Assembly: GCA_029256085.1 (NCBI GenBank)
Contig: JAQSYP010000007.1
Span: forward strand, 1-64,000
Direction of reading: 5' to 3'
Origin: Caryophanales bacterium
GTDB lineage: Bacteria; Bacillota; Bacilli; CAJFEE01
DNA length: 64,000 nucleotides
The position numbers were made by a program, and so were the translations under genes. Of this stretch, positions 4,601-62,631 are shown in pieces (within the stretch, counting starts at the first letter, position 1; each line of letters starts with the position of its first letter). A model generated the notes under the pieces. That model saw nothing but the letters and a program-made list of their open reading frames with translations, was not told the DNA's origin and searched no databases.

Positions 4601-4715
4601 TTTTTTAATCCATTTTATTAATTTTTTAATCCATTTATTAATTTTTTAATCCATTCAATACATTTTTTAATCCATATATTAATTTTTTTAATCCAATACA
4701 CTAGTTTTTTAATCC
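4601..4715. repeat. Phased 21-bp array 1 (core TTTTTTAATCC, 6 copies)
   Basis: AATCC, each time preceded by at least six T, starts at 4607, 4628, 4648, 4669, 4690 and 4711, giving periods of 21, 20, 21, 21 and 21. The 9-10 bases between cores vary. The 20-base unit breaks any reading frame, so helical spacing rather than codons appears to be kept. It lies between convergent genes. The same core occurs in array 2 near 62.5 kb. Confidence 0.92.
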
Positions 4716-18319: not shown

Positions 18320-18471
18320 CATAAACTTTATGTACATATATTTAATTTTTTACATATATAATTAACTTTTTATATAAAATATCATTAACTTTTTACAACT
18401 TATCATTAACTTTTTACAACATATCATTAACTTTTTACAACTTATCATTAACTTTTTACAACTTATCATTT
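18320..18471. repeat. Phased 21-bp array 3 (core AACTTTTTACAAC)
   Basis: AACTTTTTAC-type cores begin at 18387, 18408, 18429 and 18450 (period exactly 21, almost identical units ATCATTAACTTTTTACAACT). Weaker relatives at 18324, 18344 and 18364 extend the array to seven copies with periods 20, 20 and 23. It fills most of the 287-base gap between the subtilase terminator and the WYL regulator start, so it lies in the regulator's promoter region. Confidence 0.9.
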
Positions 18472-26289: not shown

Positions 26290-26460
26290 TCCCCGAAGAT
26301 TTGATTTCGTACAAAAATATGGCAGGTCTACTGACTTTGCTTCAATTTACTCAGGGCCTTCCCATACATGAGTTGTACAGTGGCTATTCCTTTTCATCAG
26401 CATTACAGTTGCGGGGACAGTTTTGGCTTCGCACCAAATTCCCTATTAAGTCTAATAATG
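26290..26460 (-). ncRNA. Cobalamin riboswitch
   Basis: On the minus strand the class hallmarks appear in order: GGTGCGAAGCC, CTGTCCCCGCAACTGTAA (the conserved core), GCCACTG, GGGAAGGC, and the B12 box AAGTCAGTAGACCTGCC. It sits directly before a terminator and btuF, the standard arrangement for B12-uptake operons. Confidence 0.95.
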
Positions 26461-26530
26461 ACACCATAATTTGTAATATTTAATTTTCGATATACTCATT
26501 GTAATTTAAATAGAATATAAAATACAAATA

Positions 26531-49616: not shown

Positions 49617-49646
49617 TGTCCGATTTCCGTTTCGGGCATTTTTTTA
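49616..49646 (+). terminator. Terminator of the 48720 gene
   Basis: ATGTCCGA and TCGGGCAT pair around TTTCCGTT, followed by TTTTTTT. Confidence 0.85.
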
Positions 49647-49691
49647 TTCTATCGATCAAATTTACATTTCTATCGACCGTTTTGTCGAAAA
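49647..49691. repeat. Two-copy 21-bp repeat with the array flank (remnant array 6)
   Basis: TTCTATCGA at 49647 and 49668 are exactly 21 bases apart. The second is followed by CCGTTTTGTCGAAAA, nearly the same flank (TTGTCGAAAA) that closes arrays 5a and 5b, at the same distance from the last unit. Confidence 0.65.
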
Positions 49692-57667: not shown

Positions 57668-58180
57668 TTACAGATTTTCATTAGAGTCATTTAAATTATT
57701 AGTCATGCAAGGATGTGAAGTTTTGTTTAACATCATATCAAAATTATCACCCATACGACTTAACATCATTTCCTTTTGTTGTGACGAAATTTTGCCATCC
57801 TTCTCTAACTGATTTAAATGATTTTTCATTACTTTTTTCATATTCTCTGTTAATGTTGCTGACTCAACCCCTTCATTCTTAGCAATTTCTGCAAGTGATT
57901 TTCCATCTTGCATCGCCTTCTGAAGGTCTTCAGTAGTCATTTTTAAAGTTTTTGCTGCCACAGAAAGCATGTCATTATGCATATCTTGCATTAGGCCCAT
58001 CATTCCACCTTGGCCCATCATTCCGCTTTGGCCCATCATTCCGCCTTGCTTCACAGCTGGTTGTTTTGTCACCGTATTTTGAAGTGTATCTGTGTTAGCT
58101 GATGTAAAGATGTTTCCTGTTGACATCGATCCGATAAAAAATGCTCCAGCCAGTCCTGCAACAACTAGTAACTTCTTCAT
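57668..58180 (-). CDS. Secreted Met/Gly-rich DUF2680-like protein
   Basis: 170 aa from ATG at 58180 (GGAG upstream). Signal peptide (MKKLLVVAGLAGAFFIGSM). A repeat of QSGMMGQGGMMG units (three copies of a GMMGQ motif), then a helical part with the DUF2680/YckD pattern (SLAEIAKNEGVESATLTENMKK, LNQLEKDGKISSQQKEMML). Paralogous to the next gene upstream. The Met clusters could bind Cu(I)/Ag(I). Confidence 0.78.
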   Translation of the reverse strand: MKKLLVVAGLAGAFFIGSMSTGNIFTSANTDTLQNTVTKQPAVKQGGMMGQSGMMGQGGMMGLMQDMHNDMLSVAAKTLKMTTEDLQKAMQDGKSLAEIAKNEGVESATLTENMKKVMKNHLNQLEKDGKISSQQKEMMLSRMGDNFDMMLNKTSHPCMTNNLNDSNENL

Positions 58181-58200
58181 AATTTTCAACTCCTATAGTT

Positions 58201-58337: not shown

Positions 58338-58826
58338 TTATAACTGTAAGTCATTAGAATTAAACGCTTCATCCGAGTTAATTAAGGAATCAATTTTCTC
58401 ACCTAAATGATACATCATGAATTCCATTTGGATTTTAGTAATTTTACCTTGATCGTTTAGTTGGTTGAAATAATTTTCAACTTCTTTTTTCATGCTGTCA
58501 CCAAGTTTTTCAGTCTTTACCCCTTTTTCTTCAGCAATTACTTTAAAAGTTTTGCCACTTTGAAGTTCAGTCTGAAGTTCTTCAGCTGTCATCCCTAACG
58601 TTTTTGCTGCTCCATCATACATCTCAATCATTGTACCTTGCATGTATTTCATAAGGCCCATCATTTCTTCTTGAGTCATTTTTTCATTTTCGTCTACTGG
58701 TGCTTGATCAATTGCTTGGCTATTATTATATTTTTTCTGACTTTTTTCTGTTAAAAGTGAACCATACGTCTTAAATCCTATAAAGAATACCACTGCTATT
58801 GCCGCAACCACTATTATTTTTTTCAT
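58338..58826 (-). CDS. DUF2680-like secreted or anchored protein
   Basis: 162 aa. N-terminal hydrophobic segment (KKIIVVAAIAVVFFIGFKTYG) that may be a signal or anchor. The helical domain is parallel to the 57668 gene (MTQEEMMGLMKYMQGTM; KTLGMTAEELQTELQSGKTFKVIAEEKGV; FNQLNDQGKITKIQMEFMM), with fewer Met. The two are tandem paralogs. AGGAGAG precedes the ATG. Upstream lie the two 21-bp arrays. Confidence 0.78.
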   Translation of the reverse strand: MKKIIVVAAIAVVFFIGFKTYGSLLTEKSQKKYNNSQAIDQAPVDENEKMTQEEMMGLMKYMQGTMIEMYDGAAKTLGMTAEELQTELQSGKTFKVIAEEKGVKTEKLGDSMKKEVENYFNQLNDQGKITKIQMEFMMYHLGEKIDSLINSDEAFNSNDLQL

Positions 58827-58952
58827 CTAAGTACTCTCCTGTTAATGTGTTGACCTTAATTATAATATAAATGTTTAGTTTTAAGGACATATTTTGATAA
58901 TGTCATGAAGTTGTAAGATTCAAAAAAATTCGAAATGTACTTTCTCCTTTTT

Positions 58953-59054
58953 GCACCGCTATTTAAGAAAATTGCACCGTCAATTTGATTTATTGCACCA
59001 CCTTTATGCAAAAGTGCACCAAGAAATAAACTTTTTGCACCGCCTTGTCGAAAA
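58953..59054. repeat. Phased 21-bp array 5a (core GCACC, 5 copies)
   Basis: GCACC starts at 58953, 58974, 58995, 59016 and 59037, exactly 21 bases apart each time (minus-strand core GGTGCAA). The last unit is followed 8 bases later by TTGTCGAAAA. The intervening 16 bases vary. It lies beyond the proBA terminator and before the 58826 gene. The minus strand is open as a ~116-codon frame with 7-residue repeats, but no ribosome site is seen. Confidence 0.93.
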
Positions 59055-59099
59055 AATTTGAAAGCATGTACACAAAGTTTGGTAACCACAAATTTTTTC

Positions 59100-59201
59100 G
59101 TACGCATTTTATCGAGATCCGTACAGGATTTTAGATTTTCTGTACGGATTTTATTAAGAACCATACCTAAAACTATACTTTCCGTACGTTCTTGTCGAAA
59201 A
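59100..59201. repeat. Phased 21-bp array 5b (core CGTACGGA, 5 copies)
   Basis: GTAC (ATAC once) starts at 59100, 59121, 59142, 59163 and 59184, exactly 21 bases apart, and TTGTCGAAAA follows 8 bases after the last, exactly as in 5a. The spacing from the last core of 5a to the first of 5b is 63, three units. The variable parts of 5a and 5b are partly alignable, so they are probably diverged copies whose cores changed together. Gap 58827-59237 (411 bases) holds these arrays and the proBA terminator. Confidence 0.93.
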
Positions 59202-59209
59202 TACATAAA

Positions 59210-59236
59210 AAAACTTGGGACCAGGCCCAAGTTTTC
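59210..59236 (-). terminator. proBA terminator
   Basis: AACTTGGG and CCCAAGTT pair around CCTGGT (minus strand), followed by TTTTTTT. Confidence 0.93.
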
Positions 59237-59237
59237 A

Positions 59238-60479
59238 TTATACACGTATTTGTCCAGTTCCACGTACAACTGCTTTTGATGTAGTGATAGCTCGTAATCC
59301 CATTGGGCCTCGTGCATGTAGTTTTTGTGTGCTAATGCCAATTTCAGCCCCGTATCCAAACTGCTCTCCATCTGTAAACCGTGTTGATGCATTATGGTAT
59401 AAAACCGCTGCATCAACTGCTTGAAAAAATAGATCGACATTACTCTCAGATTCACTAATAATTGCTTCAGAATGCTTTGTTCCGTAAACATCAATATGGT
59501 TTAATGCTTCTTCAATATTACTAACTGATTTTACAGCTAAAATTGGCGCAAGAAATTCTGTATGCCAATCCTCTTCAGTTGCTACTCCGATAAACGAATA
59601 AATCGAAGCTAACTCTTCGTCGCCACGAAGTTCAACACCTTTTTCGTGAAGTTCATTCAATAAACCTGCGATAAACGGCCAGTTTTTATTTATCAGAACT
59701 GTTTCAGCAGCATTACACACTGATGGGCGATGTAATTTTGCATTGATAACAATGTCGTATGCCATTTGTTGTTGCGCAGTATCGTCTATAAAAATATGAC
59801 AATTACCAACCCCAGTCTCTAGTACAGGAACTGTTGCGTTTTGAATAACGGTTTGGATTAACCCCGCTCCCCCACGTGGGATTAGAACATCAAGATACTT
59901 ATTGAGCTTAAACATTTCCGCTGCAGTTTCACGACTCGTATCCTCAAGAAGTTGAAGCGCATTGGCTGGTATTGCGGAATTCGCAAGTGCTTCACGCATT
60001 ACATGCACAAGGGCTTTATTTGAATTAATTGCTGACGAGCTACCTCGCAAGAGCACAGCATTTCCGGCTTTTAAACAAAGACTTCCAGCATCCACCGTAA
60101 CGTTAGGACGAGCTTCATATACCATACCGATAACACCGAGTGGTACACGTACATTTTTAATATGCAGCCCGTTTGGTCTTTCCCACTCCTCAATTGTTTC
60201 GCCAACTGGGTCTTCTAATTTAATTAACTGGTGAATACCATCAACAATTTGTTCAATTCTATCTTCAGTTAATAATAATCGGTCTAGGAGTGAATCAGAT
60301 AGACCATTCTCTTTCCCTAACCGGATATCCTTTTGGTTCTCTCCTAGAATATAATTCTTTTCAATTAAAAGAAGTTCTGCCATTTTAGATAAGGCATCAT
60401 TCTTATCTTCAGTTGTTAGCATGCCTAATGTCTTAGAAGCGTTTCTTAATTTTATAGCTTTTTGTATTAACTCACTCAT
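59238..60479 (-). CDS. proA: Gamma-glutamyl phosphate reductase
   Basis: 413 aa, full length. The catalytic Cys lies in [14 protein letters not shown]; the cofactor-binding region [19 protein letters not shown] and [15 protein letters not shown], plus the C-terminal [22 protein letters not shown], are typical. It reduces glutamyl-5-phosphate with NADPH in proline synthesis. It overlaps proB by 4 bases (ATGA). AGGAGCTG lies before the ATG. Confidence 0.96.
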
Positions 60480-62479: not shown

Positions 62480-62523
62480 TTCTACCTAAATCACGATTTT
62501 ATCAATGAAGTTAAAGCTCATAT

Positions 62524-62631
62524 AATCCAAACTTTAGGTTTTTTAATCCAAAATCAAATTTTTTAATCCGAACTCACGATTTTTTAATCCAAAATCAAAT
62601 TTTTTAATCCGAACTCACGATTTTTTAATCC
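62524..62631. repeat. Phased 21-bp array 2 (core TTTTTTAATCC, 6 copies)
   Basis: AATCC starts at 62524, 62545, 62565, 62586, 62606 and 62627 (periods 21, 20, 21, 20, 21). The central four units form a perfect 41-bp dimer repeat (62545-62585 equals 62586-62626). The core is the same as array 1, 58 kb away, and the rest differs. The alternating 20/21 spacing rules out a coding frame. It lies between the NERD and YmaF genes. Confidence 0.93.

Follow-up and report, generated by a model that had tools for sequence, protein, structure and literature searches.

CRISPR arrays are built from a leader, a constant repeat of ~23–50 bp and variable, unique spacers. Plasmid iterons and centromere-type direct-repeat arrays, which are bound by Rep or ParR-like proteins, are single loci beside the gene for the protein. 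Gyrase-binding BIMEs, in turn, occur behind genes in E. coli. One published account describes BIMEs as regularly spaced, protein-binding sites (PMC2817692), and another gives REPs as palindromes of 20–40 bp (PMC3733652).

The window analyzed here, a stretch of 64,000 nucleotides from a Caryophanales bacterium (contig JAQSYP010000007.1, positions 1 to 64,000), carries two arrays of short, regularly spaced cores behind a proA-like gene (Table 1). An earlier note on this DNA, made from the sequence alone, had described five GCACC cores exactly 21 bases apart, and these were confirmed with starts at 58953, 58974, 58995, 59016, and 59037. It had also claimed five GTAC cores at the same spacing; the 21-base step holds, but only four of the five cores are intact (59100, 59121, 59142, and 59184), with ATAC in place of GTAC at 59163. 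The two arrays are indeed in mutual 21-bp phase, with an offset of 63 bases (3 × 21), and TTGTCGAAAA does lie at 59045 and 59192, in each case 8 bases past the start of the last core. Both arrays, however, run along the minus strand, which makes the supposed end flank of each a leader that precedes its first core. Read along that strand, the locus passes from the end of proA through a terminator-like hairpin, TTCGACAAGAA, the class C units at exact 21-base steps (in order, CGTACGGAAAGTATAGTTTTA, GGTATGGTTCTTAATAAAATC, CGTACAGAAAATCTAAAATCC, TGTACGGATCTCGATAAAATG, and CGTACGAAAAAATTTGTGGTT), a linker, and TTCGACAAGGC to five GGTGCA units. Two overlapping 5-mers with at least two G/C, TGCAC and GCACC, recur five times at exact 21-base steps in the window, and no 5-mer with at least two G/C did so in 50 second-order Markov shuffles of it; the two arrays cannot have arisen by chance. 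Beyond this pair, the window holds three more long arrays, two with GGATTA cores and one with AGTTAATGATA, and a two-unit GATA module. Outside the arrays, two neighboring minus-strand genes (57668–58189 and 58338–58826) encode look-alike small, secreted-looking proteins without a Pfam family, beside a two-component system, and a cobalamin riboswitch is found at 26304–26482 on the minus strand.

Table 1. Arrays and neighboring features in the 64,000-nucleotide window.
Feature	Positions	Strand	Remarks
Class B array	4606–4715	-	Six GGATTAAAA cores, 20–21 bp steps; flanked by convergent genes
Class D array	18380–18470	-	AAAGTTAATGATA units, 21 bp; degenerate units continue to 18316
Short module	49644–49689	-	TTCGACA leader, then two GATA-type units (GGTCGATAGAA, GATCGATAGAA) 21 bp apart; 3′ of a terminator
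Small secreted-looking protein gene	58338–58826	-	Downstream of the arrays; without Pfam family
Class A array	58952–59041	-	Five GGTGCA cores (GCACC on the plus strand), exact 21-bp steps; spacers alternate A-rich/T-rich after the core
Class A leader	59045–59054	-	TTTTCGACAA (TTGTCGAAAA on the plus strand); TTCGACA-N4-GGTGCA, matching other class A arrays
Class C array	59099–59188	-	Five CGTACG-type units, exact 21-bp steps; degenerate unit (GTAT) at 59163
Class C leader	59192–59201	-	TTTTCGACAA, then GAACGTACG
Terminator-like hairpin and T-run	59206–59237	-	Between proA and the class C array, which it immediately precedes (AAACTTGGGCCTGGTCCCAAGTTTTTTT); read from sequence
proA-like gene (aldehyde dehydrogenase family)	59238–60479	-	Arrays follow its 3′ end
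Class B array	62523–62631	-	Six GGATTAAA cores, 20–21 bp steps

The arrangement recurs throughout the host genome (2.63 Mb), where roughly 64 array loci fall into at least seven core classes: GGTGCA (class A), GGATTA (B), CGTACG (C), AGTTAGTGATA, GGTTGATA, GGATGATA, and GCTCGATAGA. When pattern matches are merged by hand, the loci number about 13 for class A, 20 for B, 11 for C, 10 for D, and at least 10 for E, F, and G. Across the genome, GCACC triplets at 20–21 bp gave 25 matches and TAATCC triplets at 19–21 bp gave 55, with none for either reversed-pattern control; for the TGATA pattern the reversed control was non-zero (seven matches), so weaker matches to it are less sure. Since GGTGCA and CGTACG are separate classes genome-wide, with 11–13 loci each, the local, concerted change of one window array into the other proposed in the note is not supported, and duplication of one into the other with core replacement is rejected. 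The broader observation behind it, constant two-turn spacing and cores uniform within each array but different between arrays, turns out to be a genome-wide rule, and it is found again, with different cores, in further families of the Bacilli. A core-free array finder applied to 787 kb of the host genome returned 74 clusters, against 2 in one Markov-shuffled copy, and strong clusters numbered 56 at period 21 and 0–3 at periods of 12, 15, 18, 24, 27, 30, and 33, figures that show the period and not the density because the sampled stretches were partly or often picked around pattern-found arrays. A long, exact 21-bp repeat with GTACTTGAGCTTGT and GTAC matches (C14:18785–19337, or L075:6786–7357) was excluded as a probable coding seven-residue repeat.

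The arrays, ~70–170 bp in length, combine 6-bp cores with A/T-rich spacers of ~15 bp that show shared trends. Over the 51 units of class A, core positions are 96–100% constant, with the wobble bases of GGTGCA at 100%, and spacing is 21 in 39 of 39 steps. Steps in classes C and D are also exactly 21, and those of class B mix 20 and 21, with two of 19. The only palindrome among the tested cores is CGTACG; GGTGCA, GGATTA, and AGTTAGTGATA are non-palindromic. The leader common to class A, class C, and GATA-type cores, (A)TTTTTCGACA, stands four bases ahead of the first core; five classes open with TTCGACA at this distance. Two class C arrays (L201 and L203) have a wider gap between leader and core, and classes B and D are without the TTCGACA leader, D opening with a single GGATTAAATA. 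The tracts that follow the core alternate in class A: units 1 and 3 have A-rich tracts, and units 2 and 4 have mixed to T-rich ones. Another family has arrays in which a 42-bp alternation of this kind is visible by eye. The autocorrelation of AA/TT peaks at 21 bp (0.33–0.91), and classes A and B show a second, weak peak near 10 bp; the 10.5-bp phasing of these tracts is weak beside the 21-bp one, too weak to prove DNA wrapping. The linker between the C and A arrays of the window (59047–59099; TTACCAAACTTTGTGTACATG...) is common to a distant locus (L063:4331–4410), which argues that a compound C+A module was copied whole.

Evidence on conservation comes from GATA-type arrays that are orthologous between two species of another family, located 3′ of rplT (identified by eye from translated sequence) and of usp. 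In these two orthologous arrays, to which the test is confined, changes affect 1 of 63 core positions and 28 of 103 spacer positions (Fisher p = 5e-6), and the steps, whether 20 or 21, are identical between the species. In the host itself, a relative of the window class A array at L063 (C4:90 kb) has lost the fifth core; over the other four units, none of 24 core positions and 12 of 60 spacer positions differ. Cores and spacing are under purifying selection. No array was seen 3′ of usp in six congeners, which indicates that arrays come and go.

In other genomes, arrays built in this way are common, though with cores other than GGTGCA. The leader followed by GGTGCA matched in the host alone among 399 Bacilli genomes, and the leader with two GGTGCA cores gave six matches in a collection of 85,000 species. 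One of these, on inspection, is a true array in an uncultured Bacillota MAG (L119), 195 kb of which contained no further array, and the other five, in unrelated phyla, were taken for chance without inspection. GATA-type cores matched in 18 of the 399 Bacilli genomes; the loci inspected include several intergenic arrays (G353, G082, G128, G277, G313, G286, G335, and others) as well as loci that look coding or simple-repeat. Core-free scans found arrays with CGCCCG, ATATCATGAAA, AATCCC, and TTCGG(A/T)CAA, plus one coding-like repeat, in a random 200 kb of G353, and one array with CGCGAATAGAA in G277. In one Bacilli family, GAGCG triplets matched in 44 of 121 genomes, five of them with 340–590 matches and a reversed control of 0, with the proviso that some low-count genomes also match the control and that some of the matches may lie in coding sequence. 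The nearest relative examined, a member of the host's own family, has no class A or B arrays, and a 400-kb sample of it was array-free save for CRISPR-looking repeats. The expectation that related genomes should carry such arrays was borne out for other families of the class, where similar arrays exist, but not for this family member.

Several side observations may be added. In genome G001, the array finder caught a probable CRISPR-type repeat (ATTTCAATACATCTTATGTTACGGTTCAAC; L139:15148–15240). The GATA arrays of genus g114 (L245/L246/L287/L288 and others) end in GATAAATTTTTCACAA, which resembles the host leader TTTTTCGACAA but stands across the cores from it. A tailed phage contig, IMGVR_UViG_3300021255_000002 (L131:12325–12903), holds a long GGATTAAA array of class B build, with ~19 exact copies and additional degenerate ones at multiples of 21 bp, adjoining the 3′ end of an amidase-like gene and a terminator, and IMGVR_UViG_3300028908_000012 (L128:1972–2021) has three GGATTAAAA units at 20–21 bp steps (TAAGCACGGATTAAAATACAC).

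The position of the arrays relative to genes is far from uniform. A search for seven fixed cores gave 61 arrays. With genes called by a simple longest-frame rule, 55 of them could be classified by their flanking genes; three of the remaining six lie at a sequence edge or have no usable neighbor, and three overlap short opposite-strand frames that were taken as spurious. The classified arrays occupy 36 tandem and 19 convergent gaps and no divergent gap, against 148 tandem, 50 convergent, and 48 divergent gaps in the intergenic background of the same stretches. The absence from divergent gaps (0/55 vs. 48/246) has a probability of about 7e-6 if loci are assumed to be independent. Between tandem genes, the orientation of the array is that of the upstream gene in 26 of 36 cases, and a terminator-like hairpin was detected by a strict finder within 150 bp upstream of 24 of the 61 arrays, compared with 7% of random positions.

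The explanation that we propose, and to which we would assign about an even chance of being correct, is that the arrays are rows of binding sites for sequence-specific DNA-binding proteins, helically phased and placed at the ends of transcription units. The constancy of cores across unrelated loci, where spacers differ, implies a base-specific reader, and steps of 20–21 bp, which do not keep to multiples of three, point to double-helical rather than codon geometry. On these grounds, it can be proposed with moderate confidence that such readers exist. With a site every two helical turns, bound copies of the protein would lie along the same side of the double helix and could touch, so that binding might be cooperative, with one contact per two turns, beginning at the leader. 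The TTCGACA leader would then mark the start of the array in five classes, and the core classes may each have a protein of their own or share one that exists in variants of different specificity. A candidate reader for the leader alone is Spo0A: the host genome encodes it, and its box, TGTCGAA, is the exact reverse complement of TTCGACA. Located behind terminators and between convergent genes, the arrays would delimit transcription units at their 3′ ends, and the nucleoprotein rows might, in the weakest step of the proposal, form barriers to read-through or supercoiling, i.e., boundary elements; this role at the ends of transcription units is suggested by position and proposed with low confidence. 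A counterpoint to the binding-site reading is that no fewer than seven cores would each need a reader within one genome, and the position behind terminators is one that also tolerates neutral or selfish repeats. Candidates tried and rejected include TTCGACA as a promoter −35 box (by eye, class A has no consistent −10), a plasmid origin, and a viral origin. Blastn of the window arrays and of two arrays from other genomes gave no match in plasmid records, and pattern scans of viral contigs returned no leader-type array and almost no arrays at all.

Mobility is the first alternative to be weighed, since dispersed selfish repeats of the REPIN kind, spread and kept by a mobilizing enzyme that recognizes leader and core, would sit outside genes simply because they are tolerated there. 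Lineage-specific cores, the extragenic location at 3′ ends, the module structure common to class A (a leader, alternating units, and GGTGCAATC as the last unit of many arrays), and the compound C+A module found with a similar linker in the window and at L063 all suit this explanation, which we nevertheless judge unlikely: apart from that pair of loci, the inspected arrays do not have the common spacers or flanks expected of recent copies, no linked transposase was seen, and plasmids yielded 0 matches and viral contigs almost none. It is quite improbable that the arrays are topology elements without a specific reader, their A/T tracts, phased at two turns, bending the DNA or making it easy to wrap for gyrase or a nucleoid protein, in the manner of the gyrase-binding BIMEs of E. 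coli. The length of the arrays, their A/T tracts in phase with a weak ~10 bp peak in A and B, and their location behind genes and between convergent genes would be compatible with such a role, but the invariance of the GGTGCA, GGATTA, and CGTACG cores, like the ortholog test, demands a reading of bases beyond shape. Neutral minisatellites generated by slippage would account for the nearly identical units seen in some arrays of classes D, F, and G. Classes A and C, on the other hand, keep cores and exact spacing despite diverged spacers, identical cores are found at unrelated loci, enrichment is confined to the 21-bp period, and the core and spacer rates of the ortholog test differ (p = 5e-6); the contrast between core and spacer largely refutes slippage, which we hold to be highly improbable.

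The remaining alternatives concern other readers of the same letters. Asymmetric cores of 5–6 bp that depend on lineage and coexist in one genome are reminiscent of the recognition words of restriction-modification or other defense enzymes, kept as decoys or as products of cut spacing, but the terminator position, the leader, and the two-turn spacing would be left unexplained, and the probability of this origin is very small. A transcribed RNA element, such as a sponge or a processed small RNA, would fit arrays that follow genes in the direction of the gene, and the window class C array does fold better than its shuffles (z −3.5), as its palindromic core permits. However, folding stayed at the shuffled level in seven of the eight arrays tested (z −1.4 to +1.3), no Rfam family reached threshold over the arrays, where weak, sub-threshold miRNA-type matches were seen, many arrays lie behind terminators, and a 20–21-bp spacing has no RNA rationale, which leaves this possibility scarcely credible. 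That orthologous arrays hold on to their cores and spacing as the spacers change fits base-specific reading in helical phase, as postulated in the earlier note; an RNA partner that reads a fold is not supported. Coding for seven-residue repeats, finally, has next to no probability. It draws on the identity of 21 bases with seven codons, on some class A arrays that read as GAKNLI-GAVLNKS heptads, and on frame 0 being open in 7 of 12 class A arrays. Even the best frame, though, is open in only 7 of 12 class A and 7 of 25 class B arrays, and steps of 20 and 21 bp are mixed in class B and in other genomes. The translated, conserved protein that the note had named as fatal to its own reading did not materialize, as frame 59494–58856 has no Pfam family, stops interrupt several other GGTGCA arrays, and the wobble bases of the core are invariant.

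If the binding-site explanation holds, several Bacilli families, in whose genomes array matches can number in the hundreds, would carry a non-coding class of element defined by geometry and not by sequence, and chromosome-binding proteins with diversified specificity would be revealed. The separation of neighboring transcription units in bacteria would become directly testable, and short open frames with seven-residue repeats, which the arrays can generate, could be accounted for. A more far-reaching version, possible in our view but rather doubtful, is that many Bacilli maintain chromosome-wide boundary marks at transcription-unit ends, with a constant two-turn pitch and interchangeable core words, of which each genome has several and each lineage its own. 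A family of DNA-binding proteins with diversified specificity would read these marks, which would be the bacterial equivalent of insulator or boundary sites.

A search of the open-access literature, which misses most subscription papers, found no published description of such arrays, and their architecture, function apart, appears to be new. The presence of a leader, a constant repeat, and variable spacers is reminiscent of CRISPR, but here the repeat is ~6 bp, the spacers are A/T-rich and 15 bp long, and the arrays are short and number in the dozens. Unlike Spo0A boxes, most TTCGACA leaders lie behind terminators and not at promoters, and the arrays of classes B and D have no such leader. Tandem sites in helical phase with a unit near 20 bp (21-bp steps, or 20–21 in class B) are also a property of iterons and ParR-type arrays, from which the present arrays differ in occupying about 64 dispersed chromosomal loci at the 3′ ends of genes and in having unconserved spacers. 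The arrays resemble REPs and BIMEs in being extragenic, dispersed, lineage-specific, and located behind genes, and in avoiding divergent promoter regions (0/55). In contrast to REPs, however, their unit is not an inverted repeat, and the fold z-score is near 0 in seven of eight arrays; and where BIMEs alternate in orientation, these arrays keep a single orientation, with mostly non-palindromic cores set 20–21 bp apart and several unrelated cores per genome.
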